This document shows positions 27,691-46,052 of a stretch of DNA of 64,000 nt, piece by piece. Each line of letters opens with the position of its first letter. Position 1 is the stretch's first letter. The stretch covers positions 372,001-436,000 of the forward strand of contig CANLZL010000001.1 of the NCBI GenBank assembly GCA_947495575.1, written 5' to 3'. A program made the position numbers and the translations under genes. Origin of the DNA: an uncultured Nioella sp. (GTDB lineage: Bacteria > Pseudomonadota > Alphaproteobacteria > Rhodobacterales > Rhodobacteraceae). The notes under the pieces are model-generated. The model was not told where the DNA came from and searched no databases. It worked only from the letters and a program-made list of their open reading frames with translations.

Positions 27691-27761
27691 ACCAAGGCGA
27701 CATCGAACGGAATTTGAATGCGCCTTGTTGCACAGGGCAGAATAAGAAAGCGAACTTAAAG

Positions 27762-28793: not shown

Positions 28794-28819
28794 TCCAAAA
28801 ACAATAAAAGGGAGGCCAG

Positions 28820-31681
28820 ATGAATATCCAGCAACCTAAGGTTGAGACCTCGGCGCCGGTAGGCGATGAAGTCAAGCAGACGACTTGTTACATGTGCGCG
28901 TGCCGGTGCGGCATCAATGTGCACCTGAAAGATGGCAAGGTTCGGTATATCGAGGGCAACCGCGACCACCCGGTAAACAAGGGCGTTCTTTGCGGTAAAG
29001 GTGCATCTGGCATCATGCAACACTACTCGCCCGCGCGGCTGCAATCGCCTATGAAACGGGTGGGCCCGCGCGGATCCGGTCAGTTTGAGGCGATCTCGTG
29101 GGAAGAGGCGCTGGAAACAGCAACCGAATGGCTGGGCACAGTCCGAAAATCTGATCCAAAGAAACTGGCCTTTTTCACTGGCAGGGATCAAAGCCAGTCG
29201 CTGACTGGCCTGTGGGCCATGAAATACGGAACCCAGAACTTTGCCGCGCATGGCGGGTTCTGCTCTGTGAACATGGCCGCCGGTGGTCTTTACACATTTG
29301 GTGGCGCGTTCTGGGAATTCGGCGATCCGGATTGGGATTACTCCAAATACTTTATGCTCTTTGGCGTTGCCGAAGATCACGCGTCGAACCCGATCAAGAT
29401 CGGCATGGGCAAGCTGAAAAACAACGGGGCCAAGATCGTTTCGATCAACCCTGTTCGGACAGGCTATAACGCGATTGCCGATGAATGGGTTGGCATTCGC
29501 CCCGGCACGGATGCTCTCTTTGCCGGCGCCCTTATCCATGAGCTGTTCCGCACTCAGCAAGTCGACCTCGATTACCTTATCCGCTACACCAATTCACCTT
29601 GGTTGGTCATTCAGGACCCCGGCGCAGCCGATGATGGTTTGTTTGCGCGAGACGAGGACGGCAACCCACTTGTCTGGTCACGAGATGCTGAAGGATTTGC
29701 CAGCGGCAAGGCGGGTGATCTGAGCGCATCCTTGACCGGTAGCCGTACCCTGGCCGATGGCCGCACTGCCCGCCCTGTATTCGAATTGATGGCGGAACGC
29801 TATTTGGACGAAGAGTACAGCCCGGTCGCAGTTGCAGAAAAAACCGGTATCCCCGCCGATCAAATCAGTCGCATCGCAGCGGAACTGGCGCATGTTGCCT
29901 TCAAAGAAGAAATCGTGATCGAGCGCGAATGGACCGACGCATGGGGCCGAAAGCATGACAAGCTGATCGGACGCCCTGTATCGATGCATGCAATGCGCGG
30001 GATTTCGGCCCACTCAAACGGGTTCCAGACTTGCCGGATGATCCACATCCTGCAGATCCTATTGGGATCAATCGATTGCCCCGGCGGCTTCCGCTACAAG
30101 CCGCCATATCCCAAGCAGACACCGCCCAATCTGTTGCCACATGGCGCTGTGCAAGACATCAAGCCGGAATTACCGCTTGGCGGCCCGCATCTTGGCTTCC
30201 CCCATGGTCCGCAGCATTTGTTGATCGATGATGACGGCAATCCAAGTCGGATCGACAAGGCGTTTAGCTGGGATGCGCCGATGTCCTCGCACGGGTTGAT
30301 GCACATGGTCATCAATAATGCGGCCAAAAAGGACCCTTACGGCATCGACGTCATGTTCATGTATATGGCCAACATGGCCTGGAACAGTTCGATGAACACA
30401 CCGGGCACGTTGGACGCACTGACCGCCAAGGATGAAAATGGCGAATACGTCATTCCCAAGATCATCTATTCGGATGCCTATTATTCCGAAACCGTGGCCT
30501 TTGCCGATCTGATCCTGCCGGACACCACGTATCTGGAACGGTGGGATTGTATTTCTCTCCTCGATCGCCCGATCTCAGAAGCCGAGATGATGGCCGACTC
30601 GATCCGCCACCCCGTGGTCGAGCCTGACCGTGATGTCCGTGGGTTCCAGACAGTATTGATTGATCTTGGTGCGCGTCTTGGCCTGCCGGGCTTTACCAAG
30701 GACGACGGAACGCCGCTCTATCCCGGTGGATATCCGGACTACATCGTAAATCACGAACGCAAACCCGGCATCGGCCCATTGGCCGGTTGGCGCGGCAAGG
30801 ATGGTGAGACGTTCGGGGTAGGGGAGCCGAACCAGAACCAATTGGATCGCTACATCGAAAATGGCGCATTTTTCGAGCATAAGATCGCGCCGGAACATGC
30901 CTATTTCCGTCATGCCAACCGCGGTTATATCGACTGGGGCATCGAAAAGGGCATTCGTATGTCGCCCGACCCCACGATCTTTCAACTCTACTCGGAACCT
31001 GTTCAACGTTTCCGTTTGGCGGCCCAAGGTCACGGTGACCGCCAACCGCCCGCGCGTGCCAAGGACAGGATCGAAACGCATTTTGATCCGTTGCCCTTCT
31101 GGTATGCACCGTTGGAAGAAACGATGGTTGATACCAACACTTTCCCACTGCACGCGATCACGCAACGCCCGATGCATATGTACCATTCCTGGGGGTCACA
31201 GAACGCATGGCTTCGCCAAATCACTGCCGAAAACCGTCTCTATATCCACACGGATGTCGGCAAATCGATTGGCGCCAAAGATGATGACTGGGTTTGGCTC
31301 AGTTCGCATCACGGCCGCATTAAATGTCAGGTACGCCTAATGGACGGGGTGAACCCGCACACGGTCTGGACCTGGAACGCTATTGGCAAACGTCGTGGTG
31401 CTTGGGGCCTGGATGATGATGCACCGGAATCCAATCGCGGCTTCCTGCTCAATCACCTGATTTCCGAGCTGTTGCCAGAACGAGAGGGCGGGTATCGCTA
31501 CTCGAACTCGGATCCCATAACCGGTCAGGCTGCCTGGTTTGACCTGCGGGTTGCGATTGAAAAGGCCGAGGATGGCGCTGGCCATACCGAGCCCTTCTAT
31601 GAGCCAATTGGAACCGGCAACCAGCCTGCATCGCCAGAGAAACTCGCCTATGGCAAAGAGTTCAGAAAGGCCAAGTCATGA
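28820..31681 (+). CDS. soeA: Sulfite dehydrogenase SoeA, molybdopterin catalytic subunit
   Basis: This molybdopterin oxidoreductase of the DMSO-reductase family (953 aa) is predicted to oxidise sulfite to sulfate on the cytoplasmic side. There is no twin-arginine signal, matching the known cytoplasmic SoeA. The N-terminal 4Fe-4S ligands are Cys23, Cys26, Cys30 and Cys58 (CYMCACRC ... GVLCGKG). Further motifs are GRDQSQSLTGLWAMKYG, FCSVNMAAGG, IVSINPVRTGYNAIADEW (pterin binding) and a C-terminal RPMHMYHSWGSQNAWL domain. It starts after AGGGAGG and overlaps soeB by 4 bp. Family and context (Xsc sulfite) make this call strong; a thiosulfate or polysulfide reductase is the main alternative. Confidence 0.88.
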   Translation: MNIQQPKVETSAPVGDEVKQTTCYMCACRCGINVHLKDGKVRYIEGNRDHPVNKGVLCGKGASGIMQHYSPARLQSPMKRVGPRGSGQFEAISWEEALETATEWLGTVRKSDPKKLAFFTGRDQSQSLTGLWAMKYGTQNFAAHGGFCSVNMAAGGLYTFGGAFWEFGDPDWDYSKYFMLFGVAEDHASNPIKIGMGKLKNNGAKIVSINPVRTGYNAIADEWVGIRPGTDALFAGALIHELFRTQQVDLDYLIRYTNSPWLVIQDPGAADDGLFARDEDGNPLVWSRDAEGFASGKAGDLSASLTGSRTLADGRTARPVFELMAERYLDEEYSPVAVAEKTGIPADQISRIAAELAHVAFKEEIVIEREWTDAWGRKHDKLIGRPVSMHAMRGISAHSNGFQTCRMIHILQILLGSIDCPGGFRYKPPYPKQTPPNLLPHGAVQDIKPELPLGGPHLGFPHGPQHLLIDDDGNPSRIDKAFSWDAPMSSHGLMHMVINNAAKKDPYGIDVMFMYMANMAWNSSMNTPGTLDALTAKDENGEYVIPKIIYSDAYYSETVAFADLILPDTTYLERWDCISLLDRPISEAEMMADSIRHPVVEPDRDVRGFQTVLIDLGARLGLPGFTKDDGTPLYPGGYPDYIVNHERKPGIGPLAGWRGKDGETFGVGEPNQNQLDRYIENGAFFEHKIAPEHAYFRHANRGYIDWGIEKGIRMSPDPTIFQLYSEPVQRFRLAAQGHGDRQPPARAKDRIETHFDPLPFWYAPLEETMVDTNTFPLHAITQRPMHMYHSWGSQNAWLRQITAENRLYIHTDVGKSIGAKDDDWVWLSSHHGRIKCQVRLMDGVNPHTVWTWNAIGKRRGAWGLDDDAPESNRGFLLNHLISELLPEREGGYRYSNSDPITGQAAWFDLRVAIEKAEDGAGHTEPFYEPIGTGNQPASPEKLAYGKEFRKAKS

Positions 31682-32421
31682 CCACACTTCCCCAATCCAC
31701 TGGCAAAAAGCTGGGTCTGGTCATCGACCTTGATATCTGTGTGGGCTGCCAGTCCTGCGCGACCAGCTGTAAAGAATGGAATACCGGCGGATATTCTGCC
31801 CCACTGTCAGATCACGACCCTTATGGGGGCGATCCTTCGGGGGCATGGCTCAACCGGATCCACTCATACGAGTTCGATGATGGCCAACAGGCCAAGACCG
31901 TCCATTTCCCGCGCTCTTGCCTGCATTGCGAAGAGCCTGACTGCGTCACTGTTTGCCCAACGGGAGCAAGCTATAAACGCGAAGAGGACGGCATCGTTCT
32001 GGTCAATCCGGATACATGCATCGGTTGTAAGCTATGTTCCTGGGCCTGTCCTTATGGCGCGCGCGAATATGATTATGACGATGGTGTCATGAAGAAATGC
32101 ACGCTGTGTGTAGACCGGATCTATAACGAAACCATCCCGGAAGAAGACCGTGTTCCGGCCTGCGTGCGGTCCTGCCCAACCGGTGCCCGCGCCTTTGGTG
32201 ACTTGGATGATCCGACCTCGGACGTCTCCAAATCGGTGATCGCCCGAGGCGGGTTTAACCTGCTGGATGAGTTTGGCTACAAGCCGACCAATAAATACCT
32301 GCCGCCGCGCAAGGCCGAAGTGCCTGCCGCGCCGGTTGAACGTCAACCAGAGCAAGTTGCCGCGCCCGGCAACACGGCCATCGAGAAGTTGTTCTCGTGG
32401 GTCGACAAAGCGCTGTCGTAA
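31678..32421 (+). CDS. soeB: Sulfite dehydrogenase SoeB, iron-sulfur subunit
   Basis: SoeB is an electron-transfer subunit of 247 aa with four cysteine clusters. The first is CVGCQSCATSCKEWN (about residue 21), the second CLHCEEPDCVTVCPTGA, the third CIGCKLCSWACPYGA, and the fourth is made of CTLC and CVRSCPTGARAFGDLDDP. Its layout matches DmsB/PsrB proteins. It passes electrons from SoeA to the membrane anchor SoeC. The last ~40 residues are a low-complexity tail without clusters. The start overlaps the soeA stop and the gene ends 12 bp before soeC. Confidence 0.9.
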   Translation: MTTLPQSTGKKLGLVIDLDICVGCQSCATSCKEWNTGGYSAPLSDHDPYGGDPSGAWLNRIHSYEFDDGQQAKTVHFPRSCLHCEEPDCVTVCPTGASYKREEDGIVLVNPDTCIGCKLCSWACPYGAREYDYDDGVMKKCTLCVDRIYNETIPEEDRVPACVRSCPTGARAFGDLDDPTSDVSKSVIARGGFNLLDEFGYKPTNKYLPPRKAEVPAAPVERQPEQVAAPGNTAIEKLFSWVDKALS

Positions 32422-32433
32422 GGGAGAGATCAG

Positions 32434-33372
32434 ATGCATCCAGCTTATTCCGTTATCTTCTTCACCACGGCCTCTGGCGCCGGCTACGGCCTGCTCTTTT
32501 GGTTATCTTTGGCCGAGGCCGTTGGCGCGATGCCAGGGGGGCGGTGGCTCTCCTTCGCAATCATTGCCGTGGCCCTAACCCTGATCTCGCTCGGGCTCCT
32601 CTCCTCGACCCTCCACCTGGGTCACCCTGAGCGGGCCATCGGCGCCTTCTTGCAATGGCGATCTTCGTGGCTGTCGCGAGAAGGCGTCGCCGCTGTCCTG
32701 ACCTATATTCCGGCGGGCCTATTGGCTTTAATGTGGCTGTTCAATATCGAAAGCGGCCTATCCAGCATTCTGGCAATCCTGTCGGCGGTTGGTGCGGCAG
32801 TGACCGTCTATTGTACCGGGATGATCTATGGGTCTTTGCGTACAATCCGCCAGTGGAGCCATCATCTTGTTCCCCTGATCTATCTCGGGTTTGCTGCGGC
32901 AACCGGGGCCCTTTTGTTTGGGTTTTCGCTGGCCATTTGTGTCAGTTTGCCGATGTGGACGACCTTGTTGATCCTGGTGACAACAGTGACGGCGGCGGTC
33001 ATGAAAATCAGCTATTGGAAGCAGGTTGACGCTGATCCGGGTCAGTACACTCGTGAAATGGCCCTGGGGATGCCGCATCTGGGCACGGCGCGTCCTTTGG
33101 ATCCACCACACAGCCGGCCCAATTTCGTGATGCGCGAGATGGGGTATTCCGTGGCCCGCAACCATGCCGAAAAGCTGCGTACCCTGACCATGGTGACATT
33201 AATGGGGGCACCTATTGTGCTGACCCTGCTTGCCATGCTCATCGGGTTGACCGGTCTTTGGCTGGCCCTTGCCGTAATCGCTGCGGGTGTTGGAATTGTC
33301 ACTGAGCGGTGGCTGTTCTTTGCAGAAGCGGAACATGTGAGCCAGCTCTACTATGGGGCTGCGCGGGCCTAA
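32434..33372 (+). CDS. soeC: Sulfite dehydrogenase SoeC, membrane anchor (DmsC family)
   Basis: This membrane subunit of 312 aa, with about eight to nine spans, should pass electrons to the quinone pool. It starts MHPAYSVIFFTTASGAGYGLLFWLS and has the DmsC-type loop STLHLGHPERAIGAFLQWRSSWLSREG with the conserved LGHP histidine and WL.RE motif. GGGAGAG precedes the ATG. It is the last gene of the sulfonate operon and is followed by a clear terminator. Confidence 0.89.
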   Translation: MHPAYSVIFFTTASGAGYGLLFWLSLAEAVGAMPGGRWLSFAIIAVALTLISLGLLSSTLHLGHPERAIGAFLQWRSSWLSREGVAAVLTYIPAGLLALMWLFNIESGLSSILAILSAVGAAVTVYCTGMIYGSLRTIRQWSHHLVPLIYLGFAAATGALLFGFSLAICVSLPMWTTLLILVTTVTAAVMKISYWKQVDADPGQYTREMALGMPHLGTARPLDPPHSRPNFVMREMGYSVARNHAEKLRTLTMVTLMGAPIVLTLLAMLIGLTGLWLALAVIAAGVGIVTERWLFFAEAEHVSQLYYGAARA

Positions 33373-33433: not shown

Positions 33434-33465
33434 CGGTTCAGGGACGGGTGAAAACCCTTCCGAAT

Positions 33466-33481
33466 TTGAATGCGTTTTCAA
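33466..33481. promoter_or_regulatory. LacI-type operator upstream of the LacI gene
   Basis: TTGAATGCGTTTTCAA matches the LacI-family operator pattern TTGAAANCGNTTTCAA at all fixed positions but one, with the usual central CG. It ends 26 bp before the regulator's ATG, so autorepression is likely. No second copy was noticed upstream of neighbouring operons. Confidence 0.65.
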
Positions 33482-33507
33482 TTCTGAGCTTTGAGGAAGG
33501 CGACGTC

Positions 33508-34530
33508 ATGCCGATCAGGAAGCAAAGCAAAGCAGATATCGTTGCCGTGGCCAATGAGGCAGGAGTGTCCATTTCCACTGTCTCGCGCAGTTTCAATCAC
33601 CCGGATCTGGTGAAGCCGCAAACACGCAAAAAGATCGACCGTGCTGTGCGCAAGCTTGGTTATATCCGTAACCGGGCCGCTCAAACCATGCATGGTATTC
33701 GCTCGGCCACAATCGGGTTGGTTGTGCCGACAATTGATCACGCAATATTTGCCGAAGTGACCCAGGCCTTTTCGGACGCCGTTGAACATCATGGGTTTAC
33801 CATTCTTGTGGCCTCTCACGGTTACGACCTTGAGCGCGAATATGCGATTTTCCGGAAATTTCTGGAGCACCGGGTCGACGGAGTTGCCTTCATCGGCATG
33901 GATCACAGTGAAGATTTACGCCAATTGATTGCGCACCAAGACATCCCGGCCATGTCGGTTTGGAACTATGATCCAAGCTCTGGCTACTCATGCGTGGGGG
34001 CAGATAATAAGGCTGCCGGGCGGACGGCTGCGCAATATCTTCTGGATCTGGGGCACCGCGATATCGTGACGATGTTTCCGCCAGTGACCGATAATGACCG
34101 GGCGCGCGCGCGCCGTGATGGGGCGATGGACGCTTTTGAACAAGCAGGACTAGAGATGCCCCAAGCGCGACAGCTAGAGGTCAGCTATAGCATTGCAGAA
34201 GCGAAGGCACGGACAGTTGCATTGATTGAGGCAGACGTGTTGCCGACCGCAATTCTTTGCGGCAACGACATCATCGCGCAGGGCGTACTGCATGGGTTGC
34301 GCAAGAAGGGTATCGACATTCCCGGGCAGGTCTCCGTTATGGGGATAGGTGATTTCCCCGGCTCAAAAGAGATGGAGCCACCATTGTCGACCGTGCGCAT
34401 TCCGGCCCGTGAAATCGGGTCACGGGCCGGAGAGACCTTGGCGCAGGCCATCATCCATCAATCAAGCGATATTGTGCATATTCAATGCGATACTGCTTTG
34501 GTTCCGGGGGGAACCTGTCGGCCTGTCTGA
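33508..34530 (+). CDS. LacI-family transcriptional regulator
   Basis: This is a predicted sugar-responsive repressor of 340 aa. Residues ~8-55 are the LacI helix-turn-helix and hinge (DIVAVANEAGVSISTVSRSFNHPDLV, in part). The periplasmic-binding-like core has ATIGLVVPTIDHAIFAEV, the DGVAFIGMDHS region, PTAILCGNDIIAQGVLHGLR and VMGIGDFPGSKEMEPPLSTVR. ATG 33508 follows GAGGAAGG, and the start at 33448 would include the operator. It is convergent with the mutarotase gene (10 bp apart). It probably controls one of the sugar operons downstream, but which one is not visible from sequence. Confidence 0.9.
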   Translation: MPIRKQSKADIVAVANEAGVSISTVSRSFNHPDLVKPQTRKKIDRAVRKLGYIRNRAAQTMHGIRSATIGLVVPTIDHAIFAEVTQAFSDAVEHHGFTILVASHGYDLEREYAIFRKFLEHRVDGVAFIGMDHSEDLRQLIAHQDIPAMSVWNYDPSSGYSCVGADNKAAGRTAAQYLLDLGHRDIVTMFPPVTDNDRARARRDGAMDAFEQAGLEMPQARQLEVSYSIAEAKARTVALIEADVLPTAILCGNDIIAQGVLHGLRKKGIDIPGQVSVMGIGDFPGSKEMEPPLSTVRIPAREIGSRAGETLAQAIIHQSSDIVHIQCDTALVPGGTCRPV

Positions 34531-34540: not shown

Positions 34541-34885
34541 TCAATCGAGGTGAAAAACCTGTTCCATCCGGGCCCACCACTCACCTTCGGCCCGCGTCTT
34601 AAGCGGGGCTTGCATAGGACCGCAAAGCTTCCACCACTCTTGCGTCACCGGATCAGCCGAGACCGCTGCCATATCGGCCTCAAAATCGCTGCCCACATAT
34701 TCCCAATAGCTGAACATCAGCATTTCCGGTTCACGTAAGAAAATCGAGTAATTGGTCACGTTGGATTGGCTGAGGCGGGCCAGAACGTCGGGCCAGACAT
34801 CGGCGTGCAGCCGAATGTATTCGGCCTTGTCCTCGGGCTTTAGCCCGATGACCATTCCCATGCGCTGCACGTTTTTCTTGGTCAT
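34541..34885 (-). CDS. L-rhamnose/L-fucose mutarotase family protein (RhaM, DUF718)
   Basis: This 114-aa protein of the RhaM ferredoxin-like fold interconverts anomers of a 6-deoxy- or L-hexose. Family features are MGMVIGLKPEDKAEYIRLHADVWPDV (catalytic His in LHADVWP), NYSIFLREPEMLMFSYWEYVG, and the C-terminal WWKLCGPMQ and EWWARMEQVFHLD. It overlaps the lactonase by 4 bp with GGAGGGG before its ATG, so the two are cotranscribed. In this context an L-galactose or L-fucose mutarotase is more likely than rhamnose, because no rhamnose isomerase, kinase or aldolase is present. Confidence 0.88.
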   Translation of the reverse strand: MTKKNVQRMGMVIGLKPEDKAEYIRLHADVWPDVLARLSQSNVTNYSIFLREPEMLMFSYWEYVGSDFEADMAAVSADPVTQEWWKLCGPMQAPLKTRAEGEWWARMEQVFHLD

Positions 34886-35721
34886 GCTGACCCCTCCAAT
34901 CCATAAAATGTCGCTGCGGTTGTGCCAAAAACAGCAGCTTTGTCTTCATCTGCCAATGACGCGGTTAGGTCCTGCGCGACGGACAACCAGCCTGGATAAT
35001 CGCCCGCCATTTCCAAGACAGGCCAATCGCTGCCCCACATAAGTCGTTCGGGGCCAAACTCGGCCAACACATGGGTGTATACGGGCTGCAGAGCCGCCTT
35101 GCTCCAACCGGGGCCATGTTCATTGGCCAGGCCCGACAACTTGCACGTCACGTTCGGCAGATCCGCCAATCGGGACATGCCATCGCGCCATAATGGCCCG
35201 GGATCGGTGCCACCCGCGATGACGGGTTTCGCACAATGGTCGATGACAATGGGCAGGTCCGGAATAGCTTTGGCCAAGTTTTCAATCACTGGCAAATGGC
35301 GGGGTTGGATCAACGCATCCAATCGCAAACCAAGGTCTGTCAAATGTTTCAATTGCGCCATTCGGTTGGGTTCAAGCACCCAGTCCGTTTGCTCAACATC
35401 CTGCAACATTGGCCGGATTCCCTTAAATTTCGGATCACCTGCGAGGCGCTCCAACGTCTGCCGCGTATCGGTGCGGTCAAGATCGACCCAGCCGACAACG
35501 CCCTTAATCAAGGAATGATCGGCTGCAAGGGACAGCAAGAACTCGGTTTCTGCCACGGTCGGTGCGGCTTGGACGGCGACGCTCCCGGTAATCCCCATGG
35601 GCGGGGCGAGACTTTCCAGATCAGGGGGTAGGATGTCCCGACGGATCTTGGCGACCTTGTCGCTCATCCAGCTGTAATCGCCCCGGTCAATCCGCCAGAA
35701 ATGCTGATGTGCGTCGATCAT
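34882..35721 (-). CDS. COG3618 amidohydrolase, sugar lactonase (L-galactono/L-fuconolactonase candidate)
   Basis: This metal-dependent hydrolase of 279 aa is predicted to open an aldonolactone. MIDAHQHFWR at the N-terminus is the COG3618 signature; other landmarks are GVVGWVDLDR, FKGIRPMLQD, LPIVIDHCAKP and RLMWGSDWPVLEMAG with the late metal-site Asp. Characterised relatives are L-fuconolactonase, L-rhamnonolactonase and L-galactonolactonase. ATG 35721 has GGAAGGG upstream and is preferred to the track start. It is divergent from the UxaB-like gene and followed by the mutarotase. Confidence 0.86.
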   Translation of the reverse strand: MIDAHQHFWRIDRGDYSWMSDKVAKIRRDILPPDLESLAPPMGITGSVAVQAAPTVAETEFLLSLAADHSLIKGVVGWVDLDRTDTRQTLERLAGDPKFKGIRPMLQDVEQTDWVLEPNRMAQLKHLTDLGLRLDALIQPRHLPVIENLAKAIPDLPIVIDHCAKPVIAGGTDPGPLWRDGMSRLADLPNVTCKLSGLANEHGPGWSKAALQPVYTHVLAEFGPERLMWGSDWPVLEMAGDYPGWLSVAQDLTASLADEDKAAVFGTTAATFYGLEGSA

Positions 35722-35759
35722 GTTTGCCCTTCCCATTGACCGCTTACGAAAGTTGTTGC

Positions 35760-35789
35760 TTGACAGAACCGTATTTAATCATAAAAAAC
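35760..35789 (+). promoter_or_regulatory. Promoter -35 with 19-bp motif shared with 38907-38925
   Basis: TTGACA at 35760-35765 is followed by GTATTTAATCATAAAAAAC (35771-35789), which matches GTATTTAATAATAGAAAAC at 38907-38925 in 17 of 19 positions. The motif is an imperfect inverted repeat (GTATTT...AAAAAC) lying where the -10 and start would be, a repressor position. It sits in the 90-bp divergent gap between lactonase and UxaB-like genes, so it could control both. Confidence 0.55.
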
Positions 35790-35811
35790 CGATAGACGAA
35801 GGAGCGCCCTC

Positions 35812-36936
35812 ATGTCAATCACGCCGATCGTTCAGTTTGGGACCAGCCGGTTCTTGCAAGCCCATGTGGATCTGTTCGTGTCCGAAGCGCTTGAGCGGGG
35901 CCAGGCACTCGGGCCCATTACGGTTGTGCAATCAAGCGGCGATGCCGCCCGCGCCACAAGATTGGCGGCCTTGTCTCATCCTGAAGGCTTCCCGGTGCGG
36001 GTCGAGGGCATAAAGGAGGGAGAATCCGTCCGCTTTCAAACCTCCGTTACATCCGTGCGCCGAACGCTTTCGACCGCCACGGATTGGGACCTGTTGTGCC
36101 AGATCGTATCGGAGGAGGCTGAAATTATCCTGTCCAATACAAGCGACGCGGGGTGGAAACCGCACGCGGTCGATGGGGCAGGGGCGTTTAATCAGGCGAT
36201 GTCCTATCCGGCAAAGCTGACCCACCTGCTTTGGGCGCGGTATCAGGCAGGGCGACCGGGGCTACAGGTCATGCCGACTGAATTGGTGCCGCAAAATGGT
36301 GCCGCGTTGCGCGAACTGGTATTGCCGCTTGCCGCAAGCCTGTCAGGTGACTTCGGCCATTGGGTCGCCACGGAAATTCGCTTTGTGAACTCCTTGGTTG
36401 ACCGGATCGTCTCAGCGCCTCTTGAACCTGCGGGTGCCGTTGCAGAACCCTATGCGCTTTGGGCCATCGAGGATGCCCCCGGGCTGATCGTGCCGTGCTC
36501 GCATCCTGCGGTTCAGGTCGTGCCGTCTTTAGAGAAGATCGAAGCACTTAAACTGTTCATTCTGAACCTTGGCCATACCTATCTGGTCGAAAACTGGATC
36601 CGAGCCGAACAGCAAACCGGAGAATTTGTTCGGGACCTGCTGGCAGATCGCGCGATCAGGTCAGATCTTGAACGGCTATACACGACCGAGATCCTACCAG
36701 CCTTTCAGGCCGCCGGATGGGGCGACGCTGCACAGGCCTATATTCCCGACACTCTGGATCGGCTTGCAAATCCGTATCTCGATCACCGCCTTGCGGATAT
36801 TGCGCAAAATCACGCAGAAAAGGTTGACCGTCGGATCGGCGGTTTCCTTAAGTTTTCCAAATCCCAAAATGGAGCGGCCTGCCCAACGCTCTCTGCGATC
36901 CTGCGGGCGTCACAAAATGAGGAAGCCGTATTATGA
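35812..36936 (+). CDS. Mannitol-dehydrogenase-family oxidoreductase, tagaturonate reductase (UxaB)-like
   Basis: This is a polyol-specific long-chain dehydrogenase of 374 aa that is predicted to reduce D-tagaturonate to D-altronate with NAD(P)H. The N-terminus ITPIVQFGTSRFLQAHVDLFV resembles UxaB, SNTSDAGW lies in the cofactor domain, and the catalytic motif KLFILNLGHTYLVE has the K-x5-N-x2-H pattern. It is shorter than E. coli UxaB (~480 aa). GGAG precedes the ATG. It overlaps the aldo/keto reductase by 4 bp, and UxaA is encoded nearby, which supports the altronate role. Fructuronate reductase or mannitol dehydrogenase are alternatives. Confidence 0.75.
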   Translation: MSITPIVQFGTSRFLQAHVDLFVSEALERGQALGPITVVQSSGDAARATRLAALSHPEGFPVRVEGIKEGESVRFQTSVTSVRRTLSTATDWDLLCQIVSEEAEIILSNTSDAGWKPHAVDGAGAFNQAMSYPAKLTHLLWARYQAGRPGLQVMPTELVPQNGAALRELVLPLAASLSGDFGHWVATEIRFVNSLVDRIVSAPLEPAGAVAEPYALWAIEDAPGLIVPCSHPAVQVVPSLEKIEALKLFILNLGHTYLVENWIRAEQQTGEFVRDLLADRAIRSDLERLYTTEILPAFQAAGWGDAAQAYIPDTLDRLANPYLDHRLADIAQNHAEKVDRRIGGFLKFSKSQNGAACPTLSAILRASQNEEAVL

Positions 36937-37898
36937 AACGCAACCAAATCGGCAAAACAGACGTTCGCGTCACCGACATTTCCTTTGGCTGTGGCGCTAT
37001 AGGTAACCTCTACAGAGCAATTACCGATGATGCGGCTGCCAAGGTTTTGCAGACGGCGTGGGATCACGGCATTCGGTACTTCGATACTGCACCTCATTAC
37101 GGGCGCGGTCGGTCCGAAGCCCGATTGGGCGCGTTTCTCAAAGGCCGTGATCGTGACGAGTTTGTGGTTTCGACCAAGGTCGGACGGCTCCTTTCGCCAG
37201 GCCAGCCAATGGAGAAAGCCGATGGGTTTTTTGACCCACTGCCCAACGATGTTCGCTACGATTATTCTGGCGACGGGATCGAAGCCGCCTTTGAACAAAG
37301 CTGTGAGCGTCTTGGCCTGTCGTGGATTGATATCATCTATGTCCACGATATTGGCACCTATGCGCATGGGGACAACAATGCGACCCACTACGCAGATTTG
37401 ATGGGGTCCGGTTTTGATCGACTGGAGGCCTTAAAGGCGAAAGGTCGGATTGGGGCCTATGGGGTTGGTGTGAACGAGAACAGGATTTGCCTCGACATCC
37501 TCAAAGATCGCGCGCTCGATGTAATCCTTTTGGCAGGCCGTCTGTCTCTGTTGGATCGGTCCTCTGAGGAAGAGCTGGTCGGCGTCTGTCAGGAAAAAGG
37601 CACCAGCCTGGTTCTTGGGGGCATCTTCAATTCTGGGATTTTGGCCACTGGCCCGGTATCTGGTTCCCATTATGACTATGGGCCTGCCCCGAAAGAGGTG
37701 CTGGAGAGAGTTCAGGCGCTTCAATCTACAGCCGAAGCACATGGTATGCCGCTGGCAACTGCCGCGCTACAATTTGTCCATCATCACGCAGCAGCAGCCT
37801 CAATCCTTCTGGGCACAAGCAAACCGGCTACGTTAACGCGAAACATGAATGCGCTCGCAACGGAATGGAGCGCCGAAGCAGCAACGGCATTTGCTTAA
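36933..37898 (+). CDS. Aldo/keto reductase, L-galactose/L-fucose (D-threo-aldose) 1-dehydrogenase candidate
   Basis: This NAD(P)-dependent aldo/keto reductase of 321 aa is predicted to oxidise the C1 hydroxyl of an L-sugar to its lactone. The catalytic tetrad is visible: Asp and Tyr in FDTAPHYGRGRSEARLG, Lys in VVSTKVGRLL and His in DIIYVHDIG. The sequence around GVGVNEN and LLAGRLSLLD fits the D-threo-aldose dehydrogenase branch, which accepts L-fucose, L-galactose and D-arabinose. It is coupled to the UxaB-like gene (ATGA) and ends 2 bp from the convergent GntR gene. The lactone product would feed the divergent lactonase. Confidence 0.82.
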   Translation: MKRNQIGKTDVRVTDISFGCGAIGNLYRAITDDAAAKVLQTAWDHGIRYFDTAPHYGRGRSEARLGAFLKGRDRDEFVVSTKVGRLLSPGQPMEKADGFFDPLPNDVRYDYSGDGIEAAFEQSCERLGLSWIDIIYVHDIGTYAHGDNNATHYADLMGSGFDRLEALKAKGRIGAYGVGVNENRICLDILKDRALDVILLAGRLSLLDRSSEEELVGVCQEKGTSLVLGGIFNSGILATGPVSGSHYDYGPAPKEVLERVQALQSTAEAHGMPLATAALQFVHHHAAAASILLGTSKPATLTRNMNALATEWSAEAATAFA

Positions 37899-37900
37899 AG

Positions 37901-38803
37901 TCAAATCAAAGAATGGGTGTTGAGAGAAGCCAGAAGCGTCTGTTTTGACGTGGTCATATGCATGCGCGCAGCCGTGAGCGCCGCGGACTCATCCCGCGTG
38001 CGCAGGGCCTCAATTATTCGCAAATGCTCGGCAATGGCGGCCGCGTTCCGATCCAACTCATCCTTCTTGTCCCACTGGTAGTGATAGTGGAAGACCAGCG
38101 AAATAACCTTTTGAAATTCAGCAACAAAGCGGTTTTTGACAACCCCATCTATGGTTGCGTGAAATTGCTCATCCAAGAGAGAAAAATCGTGGTACTTCGT
38201 TTCGATCTCGGCTGCCAGAGCCCGATGCGCGGCATCAAGGCGATCCAATTCAGGCCATATGTCATGGTCGTCTGGAAGGCGAACCAGCTGTGAAACAGCG
38301 TTAAGTTCCAGAATTGTTCGGAAATCTGACAACTCCACCGCAAAATCACGTGTAAACCCCAACAACTCCCATCCGCCTTTGCGGCGGCGTTGCACCAATC
38401 CAAACCGGCTCAGAGAGGCCAGAAATTCCTGCAAGGCGTGAGCAGAAACCCGAAACTGGCGCGCCAGATCCGTGACGTTTAACGGGGTGCCAGGCGGCAC
38501 GTCAAAGCGTAGGATCCAGTCTAGAAAGCGGCGTTCCAATTCGTCAGGCGAGACCGGTTCGGATCGAACCCGTACCCGATCAGAAGCCACAGGTTTTCGC
38601 AGCAATTGCTTTTGGCGGCCGCTCCAGCGAATAATCCCCTCGGCGTCCAGTCTTTGTAAAGCAGACCGAATAACAGTCCGACTGACATCCAGATCATCGG
38701 CTAGCGCCAGTTCAGAAGGCAGTTGCGCCTCAAGCGGAAGATTCTTACAAATGGACAAAAGGGCATTATAGGCTTCCCGAAAACGCTCATCCGTGCGTGC
38801 CAT
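37901..38803 (-). CDS. GntR-family regulator with two winged-helix domains and an FCD domain
   Basis: This is a 300-aa predicted repressor, about 70 residues longer than ordinary FCD regulators. The first winged helix lies at ~8-60 (LPSELALADDLDVSRTVIRSALQRLD, in part). A second winged-helix-like segment lies at ~90-150 (LNVTDLARQFRVSAHALQEFLASLSRFGLV, in part). The FCD ligand domain follows, with LLDEQFHATIDG, AEHLRIIEALRTRD and a late histidine. ATG 38803 follows GGGG and is preferred to the track start. It is divergent from the RbsC-like permease, whose promoter holds a 19-bp motif shared with the UxaB-like gene promoter. Confidence 0.85.
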   Translation of the reverse strand: MARTDERFREAYNALLSICKNLPLEAQLPSELALADDLDVSRTVIRSALQRLDAEGIIRWSGRQKQLLRKPVASDRVRVRSEPVSPDELERRFLDWILRFDVPPGTPLNVTDLARQFRVSAHALQEFLASLSRFGLVQRRRKGGWELLGFTRDFAVELSDFRTILELNAVSQLVRLPDDHDIWPELDRLDAAHRALAAEIETKYHDFSLLDEQFHATIDGVVKNRFVAEFQKVISLVFHYHYQWDKKDELDRNAAAIAEHLRIIEALRTRDESAALTAARMHMTTSKQTLLASLNTHSLI

Positions 38804-38854
38804 GCCATAACCCCTTTTTGCTAGCCTCATGGAAGTGTTAGCAAATTTTGCACT

Positions 38855-38925
38855 TAGTCGACAATAATTAAAAACAATTGACAGAGCCGCATGTATCTCA
38901 TCTATGGTATTTAATAATAGAAAAC
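38855..38925 (+). promoter_or_regulatory. Promoter region of the RbsC-type importer operon, with two candidate operators
   Basis: TTGACA at 38878-38883 has TCTATG (17-bp spacing) or TATGGT (19-bp) as possible -10 boxes. TAGTCGACAA at 38855-38864 has the same TNGTCGACNA core as the palindrome at 9455-9472. GTATTTAATAATAGAAAAC at 38907-38925 repeats the motif found at 35771-35789. All lie in the 155-bp gap between the GntR gene and the permease. Start-site assignment is uncertain. Confidence 0.5.
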
Positions 38926-38958: not shown

Positions 38959-39981
38959 ATGGGAGACTTGATCGCTAAGGCGCGAGCGCAGGGAAGGGCG
39001 CTCAGTTTATCGCCAGAGGCGTTCCATAAACTGTCGGCCCTCGTGACGCTGTTGATTTTGATCTTTGTATTCGCCCTGTCCAGTCCGGCGTTTTTATCGA
39101 TTAACAATGGTCTAACTGTACTACTGCAAACTTCCGTGATCGGGTTGTTGGGCATCGGCATGACCATGGTGATCATCACCGGCGGCATCGATCTGAGTGT
39201 TGGCTCAGTACTCGCCCTATCCGGAACGGTCACAGGTTTGCTTGTTCAGGCCGGCGTGCCGGTATTGCCAGCCATGTTGGCGGGGATTGCCGTTGGTGCG
39301 CTATGCGGGCTGGTCAATGGGTTCGTCATTACAAAAATGCGGATCACCCCTTTTGTGGCGACACTTGGCATGATGCTGATTGCGCGGGGCATCGCCCTGC
39401 AACTGACCGGGGCTGCACCAATTTCGCGCTTGGGCGAGGCCTTTGGCATCCTTGGAAATGGCGCACTATTTCGAATTGTTGAGATGCGCGAAAACGGGTT
39501 TCCGCGTGTGGTTTTCCCGGGAATTCCGTATCCAGCGATCCTGCTCTTAATCGTGGCTATTGCGGCGGCTTACTTGCTGCGCCGCCGTCAGATCGGGCGC
39601 CATATCTATGCCACCGGATCTAATGAAGAGGCCGCACGCCTTTCTGGGGTTGTGGTCGACCGGACCAAGATGATTGCCTATGCGCTTTCGGGCGCTCTGG
39701 CGGGCCTGTCCGGCATGGTTCTCATGTCTCGACTGGTCACCGTACAACCCAATGAAGGCGTAATGTACGAGCTGGACGCAATTGCAGCCGCCGTCATCGG
39801 AGGGGCGTCCCTGATGGGGGGCGTTGGCAACATCTCAGGCACCATGATCGGGGCCTTCATCATCGGAATTTTGCGCAACGGACTGAATATGGCGGGGGTG
39901 TCCTCGTTTATCCAACAGATCGTAATCGGCGTTGTGGTCATCCTGGCCGTCTATGTCGATCAGCTGCGCTCGCGTCGTTAA
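38959..39981 (+). CDS. Sugar ABC importer permease, RbsC family
   Basis: This inner-membrane permease of 340 aa belongs to the ribose/fructose-type ABC family. It has about eight to ten spans. The family's GIGMTMVIITGGIDLSVGSVLALSG motif is near residue 70, GLVNGFVITKMRITPFVATLGMMLIARGIAL follows, and the coupling-loop region reads ATGSNEEAARLSGV. The C-terminal AAAVIGGASLMGGVGNISGTMIGA is characteristic. ATG 38959 follows GGGAGG. It is the first gene of the permease - binding protein - ATPase - dehydrogenase - uxaA operon. Substrate by context: L-galactose or a related L-sugar. Confidence 0.91.
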   Translation: MGDLIAKARAQGRALSLSPEAFHKLSALVTLLILIFVFALSSPAFLSINNGLTVLLQTSVIGLLGIGMTMVIITGGIDLSVGSVLALSGTVTGLLVQAGVPVLPAMLAGIAVGALCGLVNGFVITKMRITPFVATLGMMLIARGIALQLTGAAPISRLGEAFGILGNGALFRIVEMRENGFPRVVFPGIPYPAILLLIVAIAAAYLLRRRQIGRHIYATGSNEEAARLSGVVVDRTKMIAYALSGALAGLSGMVLMSRLVTVQPNEGVMYELDAIAAAVIGGASLMGGVGNISGTMIGAFIIGILRNGLNMAGVSSFIQQIVIGVVVILAVYVDQLRSRR

Positions 39982-40017
39982 CTGAATGAAAAAAGTCCAA
40001 TAGGAGGAGGACAACTC

Positions 40018-40959
40018 ATGAATAAGACACTGAAAACTTTGCTGGCGGCCACTGCGCTTAGCGTGGTCCCTGCGGCCCTGATGGCTGGCGAGATTGCGGT
40101 CATCGTGAAGACGACAAACTCAAATTTCTGGCAAAATGTGCGCCTTGGAGCTGAGGCCGCAATGGAGGGGATGGGCGAACATACGATGACTTTCCAAGGT
40201 CCCGCGTCTGAAAGCGCGGTGGCTGATCAGGTCAACATGGTCGAAAACGCGATCAACCGCGGTGTGGCTGGAATTGTTCTTGCTCCGTCCGACCCCGAGG
40301 CACTTGCACCGGTCGTTCGCCGTGCTTTTGAAAACGGTATCCCTGTTGTGATCATCGACTCTGGTCTTGGCGACGGGGCGGACGGAACCTATCAGGCCTT
40401 CCTTTCGACCGATAACTGCGCCGCTGGTGAACTTGTAGCGCAGCGCATGATCGAGTCTGTCGGCACAGAGGGGTCAGTCGCTGTCATGTCCTATGTTGCA
40501 GGTGTCGGTTCGGAAATCGGACGTGTCGGGTGCTTTGTCGACTACCTGGGCGAAAACTCCGATCTGGAAATAGTCGGCCCCTACTACTCTCAATCCCAAA
40601 TGGCTACGGCGCTGAACCAAACTACGGATGTTCTGGCAGCAAACGAAGATCTGGTCGGTATCTTCGGTGCCAATGAGCCGACGGCCGTGGGTATGGGGCG
40701 GGCGATTATGCAGGCTGGCCGCGCTGGTACGCTGACTGCCATGGGCTTTGACGGGAACGGCGATTTGCAGGACTTTGTCCGCGACGGAACATTGCTGGCC
40801 ACCGCAGTTCAAGGCTCGTTCCAGATGGGCGAACTGGGTGTTGGTGCCGTAATGGACATCTTGGCAGGTGAAACCGTCGACAGCTTTATTGATACCGGGG
40901 TTGTCTTGGTGGATGCCGACAATATCGACGAACCTGAGGCTCAGAACGTCCTCTACTAA
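40018..40959 (+). CDS. Sugar ABC importer substrate-binding protein, RbsB type
   Basis: This is a periplasmic receptor of 313 aa with a signal peptide (LKTLLAATALSVVPAALMAGE). The mature domain is the ribose-binding type: IAVIVKTTNSNFWQNVRLGAEAA, GVAGIVLAPSDPEALAPVVRRAFENGIPVVIIDS, LVGIFGANEPTAVGMGRAI and GFDGNGDLQDFVRDGTLLATAVQ. AGGAGGAG precedes the ATG. It lies 36 bp after the permease, and a hairpin follows before the ATPase gene. Confidence 0.92.
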   Translation: MNKTLKTLLAATALSVVPAALMAGEIAVIVKTTNSNFWQNVRLGAEAAMEGMGEHTMTFQGPASESAVADQVNMVENAINRGVAGIVLAPSDPEALAPVVRRAFENGIPVVIIDSGLGDGADGTYQAFLSTDNCAAGELVAQRMIESVGTEGSVAVMSYVAGVGSEIGRVGCFVDYLGENSDLEIVGPYYSQSQMATALNQTTDVLAANEDLVGIFGANEPTAVGMGRAIMQAGRAGTLTAMGFDGNGDLQDFVRDGTLLATAVQGSFQMGELGVGAVMDILAGETVDSFIDTGVVLVDADNIDEPEAQNVLY

Positions 40960-40969
40960 GGGCGCTTTG

Positions 40970-41008
40970 GCGGCGGCCTTCTTGATTTCCCGTTGAGGGG
41001 GCCGCTGC
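40970..41008 (+). terminator. Intercistronic hairpin after the RbsB-type gene
   Basis: GCGGCGGCC (40970-40978) pairs with GGCCGCTGC (41000-41008) with one G-T pair and a 21-nt loop, 10 bp after the stop. AAAAAG rather than a U tract follows. It is likely an mRNA-stability element favouring the binding protein. Confidence 0.5.
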
Positions 41009-41035
41009 AAAAAGACGTAATGGAGAAGACCAATC

Positions 41036-41827
41036 ATGGCGCTTGATGCCCCCCAAATCCAGCCTCTGGTCGAGATGAAGGCGATTGAAAAACACTTTGG
41101 AGGTGTAGAGGCTGTCAAATCGGTCAGCGTCGATCTTTATCCGGGCGAAGTCGTTGGAGTTTTGGGTCACAACGGGGCGGGAAAATCCTGCCTGATGCGT
41201 ATTTTGTCCGGTGCCATGATGCCAAACGGTGGCGAGATTCATGTGGCCGGGCAGAAATCAGATATAACCTCTCCTCATGATGCGCGCGACCTGGGGATCG
41301 AAACGATTTACCAGACCCTTGCCTTGGCCGATCATCTGGACGCGCCGGCAAACCTGTTTCTTGGGCGAGAGCTAAAGACCCGTTTCGGTAATCTGGACGA
41401 CAGGCGAATGTTACGCGAAGCGCAGGAGGTCTTGCGGCGTCTCAATCCCAACTTTAAAAATCTCGGTGATCCGGTTAGCAGCCTTTCAGGTGGGCAACGC
41501 CAGGTTATCGCCATTGCGAGAGCGATCTATTTCGACGTTAAGATCCTGATCATGGATGAACCAACGGCGGCGCTTGGTCCTTCTGAAACGGCGATGGTGG
41601 CCGACCTGATCCGCCAACTGCAATCTGAGGGCATCGGAATCTTTCTTGTCAGTCATGATATGCACGACGTGTTCGATCTATGTGACCGTGTCGTTGTGAT
41701 GAATAAGGGCCGCAATGTCGGCGCTTTCAAAATCGAGGATGTGACCAAGGATGATGTGTTAAGTTTGATTATCAAAGGGGAATTGCCTGACGATTGGGCT
41801 CCCCGCAATTTGGAGACCGCCCGTTGA
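41036..41827 (+). CDS. Sugar ABC importer ATPase, single-domain (FrcA-like)
   Basis: This energy-coupling ATPase of 263 aa has one nucleotide-binding domain, as in the FrcA-type importers, so it should act as a homodimer. Walker A is GHNGAGKS, the Q-loop IETIYQTLALAD, the signature LSGGQRQV, Walker B ILIMDEPTAALG and the switch His in LVSHDMHDVF. It works with the RbsC- and RbsB-type proteins upstream. Its stop overlaps the TTG start of the next gene. Confidence 0.92.
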   Translation: MALDAPQIQPLVEMKAIEKHFGGVEAVKSVSVDLYPGEVVGVLGHNGAGKSCLMRILSGAMMPNGGEIHVAGQKSDITSPHDARDLGIETIYQTLALADHLDAPANLFLGRELKTRFGNLDDRRMLREAQEVLRRLNPNFKNLGDPVSSLSGGQRQVIAIARAIYFDVKILIMDEPTAALGPSETAMVADLIRQLQSEGIGIFLVSHDMHDVFDLCDRVVVMNKGRNVGAFKIEDVTKDDVLSLIIKGELPDDWAPRNLETAR

Positions 41828-42837
41828 AGATCAATCCAACCATGAACTGCGGCGTGTGCGTGACGCCCGGCCAGTTTGAGTTGCTAGAGCGGCCATTGCC
41901 GGATGTCGCCCCAGAGGGATGGGCGCTGGTTGAAATCAAGGCGGTTGGCCTATGCGGCACTGACTATCACATCTTTGAAGGCAAACACCCGTACTTGAAT
42001 TACCCGCGAGTCATTGGCCATGAGCTGAGCGGTGTTGTTGTGTCGCCGGATGCCACGATCGCAGAGGGTACGCTTGTCACAATCAACCCATATCTAAGTT
42101 GCGGAACTTGCCGTGCGTGTCAGCGCGGAAAGCTCAATTGTTGTTCGTCCATTGAAGTTCTGGGTGTTCATCGTGACGGCGGTCTGTGTCGGCGGATCGC
42201 GGTGCCGGTCAGCAACCTTTACCCTGCCGATGGCTTGACTGAAATCGAAGCCGCAATGGTTGAGTTTTTGGCCATCGGGGCACATGCCGTCGCTCGATCC
42301 GGCATTACCAATATGGATCGCGTTTTGGTCACTGGGGCCGGGCCAATAGGATTGGGCACCGCCTTGTTCGCACGTCTGTCGGGCGCTGAGGTTCATCTTT
42401 TGGATCTCAGCGCACAACGCCTTGCCATGGCGAAAGAGAAGTTCGGTTTCGACAATCTTCATTCTGATCCGGCCACGATCCTACAAGGGCAGCTTTCCGA
42501 CGGGTTTGACCTGATCTTTGATGCGACAGGCAACACGAAAGCCATTGAAGCGGGTTTTCCGCTACTTGCCCATGGCTCCAGCTATGTTCTGGTAAGCGTG
42601 GTGAAAGACGCCATCCAGTTTGACGATGCTGAATTCCATAAGCGTGAGACGCGAATTATCGGCAGTCGCAATGCGCTAAAAGCAGATTTCGACCGCGTGA
42701 TGCTGGCCTTGCGTTCGCGTGAAATTGACAGCGATGCACTCTGTTCAGAAATACTGGACCTTGCCGATTTGCCCGCCCGATTTGGTGCTTTGGCAGGGGA
42801 TCGGGGCAATGTGATCAAGGCCGTGGTGCGACCATGA
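41824..42837 (+). CDS. Zinc alcohol dehydrogenase (MDR family), L-galactonate 5-dehydrogenase candidate
   Basis: This NAD-dependent medium-chain dehydrogenase of 337 aa has catalytic zinc ligands in VGLCGTDYHIFEG and VIGHELSG. The structural zinc lobe reads SCGTCRACQRGKLNCC, and the Rossmann segment is VLVTGAGPIGLGTALFA. The TTG at 41824 is chosen because GGAG lies 8 bp upstream and it overlaps the ATPase stop (TTGA); ATG 41842 is the alternative. It sits between the importer and uxaA (4-bp overlap). By pathway logic it would oxidise L-galactonate to D-tagaturonate, like E. coli LgoD. Substrate by inference only. Confidence 0.82.
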   Translation: MKINPTMNCGVCVTPGQFELLERPLPDVAPEGWALVEIKAVGLCGTDYHIFEGKHPYLNYPRVIGHELSGVVVSPDATIAEGTLVTINPYLSCGTCRACQRGKLNCCSSIEVLGVHRDGGLCRRIAVPVSNLYPADGLTEIEAAMVEFLAIGAHAVARSGITNMDRVLVTGAGPIGLGTALFARLSGAEVHLLDLSAQRLAMAKEKFGFDNLHSDPATILQGQLSDGFDLIFDATGNTKAIEAGFPLLAHGSSYVLVSVVKDAIQFDDAEFHKRETRIIGSRNALKADFDRVMLALRSREIDSDALCSEILDLADLPARFGALAGDRGNVIKAVVRP

Positions 42838-44354
42838 CCGGCACCGTGACTGCGCCCATTTTGCGGTTAAACACAGCCGACAATGTTGTCATCGCGTTGA
42901 GGGATATACCGGCGGGGGCAGATCTGGGCGACGGGCTTGTGGCCGCCGAGGATATTCCGCAGGGCCACAAGATTGCCGCGAAGCCAATCAGTGTGGGCGA
43001 GACTGTTCGCAAATACGGACAGGTTATCGGGGTTGCAACGCAGGTCGTGGCGGCCGGATCGCATGTGCACATCCATAATCTTGGCATGCAGGATCATCGC
43101 CGGGAAGTTGGGGCCGCAGACGTGGCCAACCGCATTCAACCTGCGCCACGTCAGGATAGTTTCCTTGGGTATCACCGTCCGTCGGGCCGGGTCGGTACGC
43201 GCAACTACCTCGGTATTCTGACCACCGTGAATTGCGCCGGATCGGTGGCACGGTTTATTGCTGAACGGGCTGAGAAAGACGGCCTGCTGGATAGCTTCGA
43301 AAATATCGATGGGATTGTTCCCATCAGCCACGGATCGGGCTGTGGAATGTCGGGGCAGGGCGAAGGGTATGATACGCTTTTTCGAACCCTTGCGGGCTAT
43401 GCACAGAACCCAAATTTCGGCGCGATCCTTTTGGTCGGATTAGGCTGCGAAGTGATGCAGATCCCGGCGCTGATGGGCAAAGGCGGGTTGGCCGATCAGG
43501 CGCGGTTCCGTTTCATGACCATTCAGCAAACCGGTGGCACGGCCGCAACCATCGAGGCTGGCGTCGCTGTGTTGAAAGACCTCGCTGAACAAGCCAACAA
43601 AGCACAACGCGCGCCCGCACCGGCCTCGGCCTTGATGCTGGGCATGCAATGTGGCGGTTCAGACGGCTTGTCCGGGATTACGGCAAATCCGGCACTTGGG
43701 GTAGCCTCTGATCTATTAGTGGCGCAAGGTGCAACGACCATCCTGTCGGAAACCTCTGAAATCTATGGCGCGGAACATCTTTTGACCCACCGCGCAGCAC
43801 CTGATGTGGGCGAGGCCCTGATGGCGCGGATCGCGTGGTGGGAAGACTATTGCGCGCGAAATTTCGGAGAGATGGACAACAATCCCTCACCCGGCAACAA
43901 ACGCGGCGGGTTGACGACAATCTTGGAGAAATCTTTGGGCGCGGTGGCCAAAGCAGGCACAGCGCCGCTTGAAGGAGTGTACCTTTTTGGAGAAAAGATT
44001 GACCGTCCGGGCCTAATTTTCATGGACAGCCCCGGCTACGATCCCTGTTCGGTTACAGGTCAGATTGCATCGGGAGCGAACCTGATTGCCTTTACGACGG
44101 GGCGCGGGTCAGTCTCAGGCTACATGCCGGTCCCATGTATCAAGCTGGCCTCGAATACGGTTTTGTATAATCGCATGCAGGCCGATATGGATGTAAATTG
44201 CGGTGATATTGTCAGCGGGGTTTCGATCACGGACAAGGGCGCCGAAATCTATCGCCTGCTTCTGAGTGTGGCCTCTGGTGAAAAAACCAAAAGTGAAGCT
44301 CAAGGTTTTGGCGGCGTGGAATTTGTGCCTTGGCAAATCGGCGCGGTGATGTAA
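42834..44354 (+). CDS. uxaA: Altronate dehydratase UxaA
   Basis: UxaA dehydrates D-altronate to 2-keto-3-deoxygluconate. The 506-aa product has the small N-terminal SAF domain (~residues 1-90, DNVVIALRDIPAGADL and HVHIHNLGM), then the large dehydratase domain with GYHRPSGRVGTRNYLGIL, HGSGCGMSG, LVGLGCEVMQIPAL, LGMQCGGSDGLSGITANPALG, SETSEIYGAE and the C-terminal SGYMPVPCIKLASNT. The length matches the UxaA/GarD family; galactarate dehydratase is a less likely alternative given the UxaB-like partner. It ends the operon and is convergent with kdgK. Confidence 0.87.
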   Translation: MTGTVTAPILRLNTADNVVIALRDIPAGADLGDGLVAAEDIPQGHKIAAKPISVGETVRKYGQVIGVATQVVAAGSHVHIHNLGMQDHRREVGAADVANRIQPAPRQDSFLGYHRPSGRVGTRNYLGILTTVNCAGSVARFIAERAEKDGLLDSFENIDGIVPISHGSGCGMSGQGEGYDTLFRTLAGYAQNPNFGAILLVGLGCEVMQIPALMGKGGLADQARFRFMTIQQTGGTAATIEAGVAVLKDLAEQANKAQRAPAPASALMLGMQCGGSDGLSGITANPALGVASDLLVAQGATTILSETSEIYGAEHLLTHRAAPDVGEALMARIAWWEDYCARNFGEMDNNPSPGNKRGGLTTILEKSLGAVAKAGTAPLEGVYLFGEKIDRPGLIFMDSPGYDPCSVTGQIASGANLIAFTTGRGSVSGYMPVPCIKLASNTVLYNRMQADMDVNCGDIVSGVSITDKGAEIYRLLLSVASGEKTKSEAQGFGGVEFVPWQIGAVM

Positions 44355-45267: not shown

Positions 45268-45335
45268 GTCAGTCCTTTAGATTGGTGCGGCCGCGATCCG
45301 GGCCGTTGCAACAGGTGTGCGGTGGGGAGCGCCGA

Positions 45336-46052
45336 TTACTCAAACTCGAATGTGACGCTTACATATTCCCATGCGTTTTTGAGATGCGCACGGAGGGCCT
45401 CTTCGGCGGCATCAGGGTCGCGTTCCAATATCGCGTCATAAATGGCTTTATGGGCGAGGTAGTTGCCTTCATTGCGTTCCGGCGAACGTTTCATCTGATC
45501 CCATTGCGGGGCCAGCCACGCAACGAGACCATCATGTAAGGCGGCAAAGACGGGGTTGCCTGAGATCGCGTACAGGACACCGTGGAAGGCGACATCGGTC
45601 TCATAAAAGCCCTCAGAATTGGATATTGACGCTTCGTTGGCCATCAACGCAGATTTCAAATCCTGAATATGTTCGCGGGTTGCGTGGGCCGCTGCCTGGC
45701 GTGCCAGTCCGGCCTCTGCAAAGACACGGACTTCGTAGAGGTTTTTCACCCCGTTGGGGTTTGACAACAGGTGGCGCACTACAGAATCGGTCGAGGCAAA
45801 GATGGTGTCGAAGCCCAGCTTCTGAACAATTGGCCGAAACCGCGGTCGTGTCAGGACTAGCCCCCGATTTGAAAGCGCTGTAATGGCCTCTCGCACGACG
45901 GTGCGACTGGCACCATAAGTTTCCATCAGCTCACGTTCCGAGGGTAAGGGCTGACTGTCCTGCAATCGGCCGTCAGCGATCTGCGCCTCTATCGCCGAAA
46001 CGATGGAATCGGCTGCACGGTTCTCTCCACCGGTTGCTTTGACTTGGGCCAT
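45336..46052 (-). CDS. GntR-family regulator, FadR/FCD type
   Basis: This is a predicted sugar-acid-responsive repressor of 238 aa. The winged helix spans ~12-75 (LPSERELMETYGASRTVVREAITALSNRGLV, in part). The FCD domain has LYEVRVFAEAGLARQAA, ETDVAFHGVLYAISGN (D..FH metal pair), HKAIYDAILERD and AEEALRAHL. ATG 46052 follows GAGG and is preferred to the TTG at 46067. It is divergent from the enolase-superfamily operon and upstream of kdgK. A FadR-type site lies at 46234-46244. Confidence 0.88.
   Translation of the reverse strand: MAQVKATGGENRAADSIVSAIEAQIADGRLQDSQPLPSERELMETYGASRTVVREAITALSNRGLVLTRPRFRPIVQKLGFDTIFASTDSVVRHLLSNPNGVKNLYEVRVFAEAGLARQAAAHATREHIQDLKSALMANEASISNSEGFYETDVAFHGVLYAISGNPVFAALHDGLVAWLAPQWDQMKRSPERNEGNYLAHKAIYDAILERDPDAAEEALRAHLKNAWEYVSVTFEFE

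Follow-up and report, generated by a model that had tools for sequence, protein, structure and literature searches.

The gene cluster considered here, which probably serves the uptake and catabolism of an L-galactose-type sugar, raises the question of which protein reads a 19-bp motif found at two of its promoters, and what that protein does there. An earlier note had described two copies, and their positions and their identity at 17 of 19 bases were confirmed in the window, by which we mean the whole 64-kb stretch of DNA analysed: GTATTTAATCATAAAAAAC lies at 35771-35789 and GTATTTAATAATAGAAAAC at 38907-38925, both on the + strand, and they differ at two positions. No further copy with three or fewer mismatches was found in the 64-kb window or across 100 dinucleotide shuffles. 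Allowing five mismatches brought out a third, weaker copy that had been overlooked, GTCGACAATAATTAAAAAC (38857-38875, + strand; 14 of 19 positions of the degenerate consensus), situated 50 bp ahead of the permease-side copy. The two-copy description thus holds for the sites that it covers, but it is incomplete: there are three sites, hereafter O1 (38857), O2 (38907) and O3 (35771), and two of them, O1 and O2, form a fixed 50-bp pair that brackets one promoter. A matrix built with the window excluded gave its three highest scores in the window to these sites (29.0, 26.8 and 21.7 bits), with the runner-up at 13.2 bits and a chance expectation of about 0.45 sites at 14 bits or more. In a scan of the 3.68-Mb genome with a degenerate pattern, the only zero-mismatch matches were O2 and O3, and the one-mismatch matches were O1 and one unrelated site. 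Because the near-exact sites O1-O3 all sit in the cluster, with this one unrelated site besides, the regulon is local.

The motif is, as had been proposed, an imperfect inverted repeat, its arms pairing at 7 of 9 positions in the first copy and 6 of 9 in the second. Each of these two copies is indeed preceded by a TTGACA box, but at unequal distances, 5 bp for O3 (box at 35760-35765, + strand) versus 23 bp for O2 (box at 38878-38883, + strand). The first box is the -35-like element of the uxaB promoter, and TTGAC is present at about the same position in most uxaB loci; O3 covers the expected -10 location of this promoter and stands, in addition, upstream of the divergently transcribed amidohydrolase and rhaM genes. 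The second box, the -35-like element of the transport promoter, follows 2 bp after O1, which stands between gntR and that promoter and is conserved in relatives. A candidate -10 hexamer, TATGGT (38903-38908, + strand), would abut or overlap O2, which ends 33 bp before the permease ATG. The fit of this hexamer in the window is imperfect, with a 19-bp spacer from the -35 box versus 16-18 bp in relatives.

The genes controlled by these sites would form a coherent pathway. O3 separates a UxaB-like tagaturonate reductase gene (35812-36936, + strand), followed by that of an aldo/keto reductase (akr; 36933-37898, + strand) that is probably an L-galactose (or L-fucose) 1-dehydrogenase, from a divergent pair encoding an amidohydrolase of the L-fuconolactonase family (amh; 34882-35736, - strand) and a RhaM-like sugar mutarotase (34541-34885, - strand). 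The putative O1/O2-controlled operon (38959-44354, + strand) encodes a sugar ABC permease, binding protein and ATPase, a zinc alcohol dehydrogenase, probably L-galactonate 5-dehydrogenase, and a UxaA-type dehydratase. Mutarotase, aldo/keto reductase, lactonase, zinc dehydrogenase, UxaB, dehydratase and transporter together fit a full route from L-galactose through L-galactonate, D-tagaturonate and D-altronate to KDG. From this fit we infer, in line with the earlier assignment, that L-galactose is the substrate; an L-fucose-like compound or another L-galactose analogue could also serve. Beyond the operon, a neighbouring sugar-acid unit (44374-47486) carries a KDG-kinase-like gene, a second GntR/FCD regulator and an enolase resembling L-talarate/galactarate dehydratase, and the 19-bp motif is absent from it. 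On the other side, 24819-33372 encodes Xsc (sulfoacetaldehyde acetyltransferase), a phosphotransacetylase, a YeiH/TauZ-like exporter and a three-subunit oxidoreductase with molybdopterin, Fe-S and membrane components, which we take to resemble the sulfite dehydrogenase SoeABC; this region is probably an organosulfonate (taurine/isethionate-type) C2 and sulfite module.

Conservation of the motif was assessed in loci recovered by a GntR protein scan of sequenced genomes, which gave 80 loci; the conservation set (n=51) consisted of the window and 50 loci whose GntR orthologue is 55% or more identical. When the regions upstream of gntR were searched iteratively for two sites, with spacing left unconstrained, the result settled on an imperfect palindrome of 19 bp, roughly GTNTTNAATNATTAAAAAC. 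Both sites exceeded the threshold in 43 of the 51 loci, always 49, 50 or 51 bp apart, and a recognisable second site was missing in about eight. By contrast, O1 lay anywhere from 5 to 73 bp from where the gntR match starts. In a held-out test, a symmetric matrix whose training set excluded both the window and all uxaB-side sites was applied to 587 kb outside the gntR upstream regions and returned 21 sites of at least 20 bits, 19 of which fell no more than 150 bp ahead of uxaB, akr or amh, the positions that correspond to O3. Of the other two, one lies at what seems to be a uxaB remnant (L006) and one belongs to an AT-rich genome (L027). Four loci (L019, L020, L048 and L109) carry the motif directly upstream of amh with no adjacent uxaB. 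The motif is therefore kept in both the divergent gntR promoters and the uxaB/amh promoters across Rhodobacteraceae and Rhizobiales, the conservation that the earlier note had asked to see. Janthinobacterium and Massilia loci, where gntR lies within a row of same-strand genes, yielded no recognised site. A paralogous GntR (about 40% identical and of similar length) beside another sugar ABC operon is preceded by GTTTTTTATAAGTAATATAC adjoining a TTGACC box, and another AT-rich repeat lies some 46 bp from it (L010:10000-10160, L014:9910-10072); given this similar layout, the promoter bracket may be a trait of the subfamily.

Judged from sequence, the motif is very probably the operator of the local GntR/FCD protein (gntR, 37901-38803, - strand; start MARTD, with a longer ORF to 38830), acting as an autoregulated repressor of L-galactose-type uptake and catabolism. 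O1 and O2 would lie on either side of the core promoter of the transport-dehydrogenase-dehydratase operon, with O1 in contact with the -35 box and O2 with the -10 element and start site; O1 would also lie within the gntR promoter region, and O3 would cover the uxaB -10 region and the start region of amh-rhaM. Without inducer, GntR dimers on these operators would exclude RNA polymerase, and a pathway sugar acid, L-galactonate or a downstream keto acid, would release them by binding at the FCD metal centre. In this scheme, the sites, how they are conserved and spaced, their association with GntR and not with LacI, and the predicted build of the regulator are what we observe; binding, repression rather than activation, and the identity of the effector are what we infer. 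The metal ligands of the FCD domain (D214, H218, H263 and H285) are invariant in 42 of 42 sequences, and E. coli DgoR binds D-galactonate through such a metal (PMC7674646), which makes an L-galactonate-like effector likely.

The architecture of the protein is unusual. GntR-type winged-helix (wHTH; PF00392) similarity scored 70.8 bits over two stretches and FCD (PF07729) 59.6 bits, and an AlphaFold2 model (mean pLDDT 85) places wHTH1 at residues 4-70, wHTH2 at 89-150 and FCD at 155-299, the last being all-helical with six helices, as in the VanR group. The FCD (FadR/VanR) group has one wHTH per subunit and the model has two, which we regard as an extension of the family rather than as grounds for exclusion. 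Solved relatives match residues of about 84-291, or parts such as wHTH1, and none spans both wHTHs; the best fold matches cover about 205-225 of 303 positions. Because these structures correspond to a one-wHTH FCD regulator or to parts of the protein, wHTH1 appears to have been added to an otherwise ordinary FCD repressor. It is in this added domain that DNA-contact residues of the Atu1419 type are found: Arg45 and Arg49 are invariant across the 42 sequences, Glu34 is present in 40 of them, and Thr46 is also kept. In wHTH2, all 42 sequences have Pro, Ala, Val, Gln or Thr in place of Arg45, and the equivalent of Arg49 is Gln in 25 of the 26 sequences of the window's clade.

The operator departs from the usual type as well. 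It lacks the canonical FadR-subfamily core, GT-N3-AC (PMC4494728), also in its N2-4 variants. Its outer GT and AC boxes are instead separated by about 15 bp in the clade of the window (by 14 bp in some loci), and by 16 bp in seven of ten Methylobacterium, Roseomonas and Tardiphaga loci, whose interior sequence is different. A scan of half-site spacing under relaxed criteria gave no single clean peak in the clade of at least 55% identity (spans of 18-20 and 27), because the half-sites there are asymmetric; the wide-box claim therefore rests on the aligned logos in that clade and on a clean 20-bp peak in the Methylobacterium-type clade. The kept wHTH1 contacts and the wide boxes would both fit a role of the added domain as the reader. 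A more specific proposal, which we put forward tentatively and at somewhat less than even weight, is that the N-terminal wHTH was gained and took over sequence reading, while the FCD-linked wHTH, taken as ancestral, lost its base-reading arginine and became a spacer; the reading heads would thereby have moved outward, which would explain a separation of 15-16 bp and not 3 between the GT/AC boxes. Literature searches found no tandem-wHTH GntR protein with an FCD domain.

Four wHTHs per dimer, the near-constant spacing across genera and the precedents for tetrameric GntR proteins would also suit a different arrangement, in which the 50-bp pair acts as one recognition unit, spanned by a tetramer or by one four-wHTH dimer as in BusR, or looped as in Atu1419. 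Against this, the spacing follows the -35/-10 geometry. In the aligned relatives, read in the transport orientation, O1 is followed after two bases by TTGACA, then by 16-18 bp and a -10-like hexamer whose final T is 98% conserved, and last by O2; the variation of 49, 50 or 51 bp between the operators falls in the 16-, 17- or 18-bp promoter spacer. Because O1 abuts the -35 box and O2 the -10-like box, the fixed spacing equals the length of a sigma-70 promoter, and the 50-bp distance is the one expected if each operator is locked to one promoter hexamer. O3, moreover, is usually single in relatives. We therefore consider a single recognition unit rather unlikely.

The position of O1 immediately upstream of the -35 box is also that of a class II activation site, and the regulator could accordingly be an activator or a dual regulator. 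The promoter-side half of O1 is the best conserved element among the relatives, and the -35 box is TTGGCA or TTTACA in some genera. This reading is improbable, since O2 and O3 overlap or directly follow the -10 element, where a block to polymerase is expected, and it is from these positions that repression is deduced. Most FCD regulators of sugar-acid pathways are repressors.

Of the two candidate binders named in the earlier note, the two-winged-helix GntR protein is favoured by motif conservation and co-occurrence, and the LacI-family protein (33448-34530, + strand) fails. The latter gene is nearby and LacI proteins bind imperfect palindromes, but LacI operators usually have a central CG and the motif is an odd-length, AT-rich repeat with none. 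Among 150 genomes of the family, a GntR orthologue of at least about 57% identity is present in ten apart from this one, and in each of the ten there are motif sites close to gntR; a LacI orthologue of at least 48% identity occurs in 14 others, with no overlap, so that a close LacI orthologue and a GntR orthologue of 55% identity or more are found together only in the present genome. Eleven LacI-orthologue loci (54-63% identity) lacked a strong site, one having a weak match (17.3 by an earlier matrix), and no LacI protein above 30% identity was found near motif-bearing loci. This co-occurrence pattern rules out the LacI-family protein as the common binder and leaves it only the faintest likelihood as the owner of this operator. 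The second GntR protein (45336-46067) was likewise rejected, there being no motif copy near its gene. Equally hard to credit is a conserved promoter or AT-rich (UP-element) sequence with no specific protein, for although the sites are AT-rich and adjoin promoter boxes, their conservation is dyad-symmetric with fixed outer G and C, the motif is absent from the genome's other promoters, O3 and O2 are placed differently relative to the -35 box, and at L006:7009-7027 the operator survives beside the apparent uxaB remnant where the TTGAC box is gone.

The proposed GntR system has several partial counterparts. E. coli DgoR, the GntR/FadR-type D-galactonate repressor, shares the GntR wHTH, the metal-binding FCD, a sugar-acid pathway and two inverted repeats overlapping one promoter (PMC7674646); it differs in having one wHTH per chain and sites with the usual 3-nt GT/AC gap (PMC4494728). 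Agrobacterium fabrum Atu1419, a tetrameric VanR-type FCD protein, is the top-ranked structural match to the model (about 215 columns) and has the same E34/R45/T46/R49 contact set, located here in wHTH1, and several operators at two promoters (PMC7797058), but it has one wHTH, binds 10-bp palindromes 190 bp apart with a loop, and serves another pathway. BusR (GntR-type wHTH with RCK_C) provides a fixed-distance bipartite operator in the GntR superfamily (PMC8517857), although its 22-bp separation is read by a coiled-coil tetramer, its effector is c-di-AMP and it has no FCD. Constant-spacing paired sites between regulator gene and target are a described class in FadR/HutC-subfamily divergons (PMC4494728); those sites mostly have the canonical core, whereas here the GT/AC boxes stand far apart and the paired sites bracket the -35 and -10 elements. 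The lgo, lgn and lgu clusters for L-galactonate and L-gluconate in E. coli, Paracoccus 43P and Luteolibacter LG18 have the same or analogous chemistry, the steps from L-galactonate through D-tagaturonate and D-altronate to KDG being described for E. coli and Luteolibacter (PMC12632266). Their regulators differ, Paracoccus LgnR being of IclR type and Luteolibacter LguR a described probable activator, and no report of the present GntR was found in our searches. The L-galactonate loci of Halomonas contain other genes, and the main text of that study mentions no such regulator (PMC5507952).

In our assessment, the regulation itself is ordinary, an autoregulated GntR repressor with several operators; what is unusual is the architecture of the regulator and the spacing of its operator. 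The literature searches made returned no report of a regulator for an L-galactose-type pathway in Rhodobacteraceae or Rhizobiales, and what began as a resemblance between two sequence copies becomes a defined, testable regulon for this pathway in both groups. The analysis also suggests a GntR/FCD subfamily in which each chain has two DNA-binding domains, one of them apparently retired, and whose type of operator would escape the published GntR motif rules.
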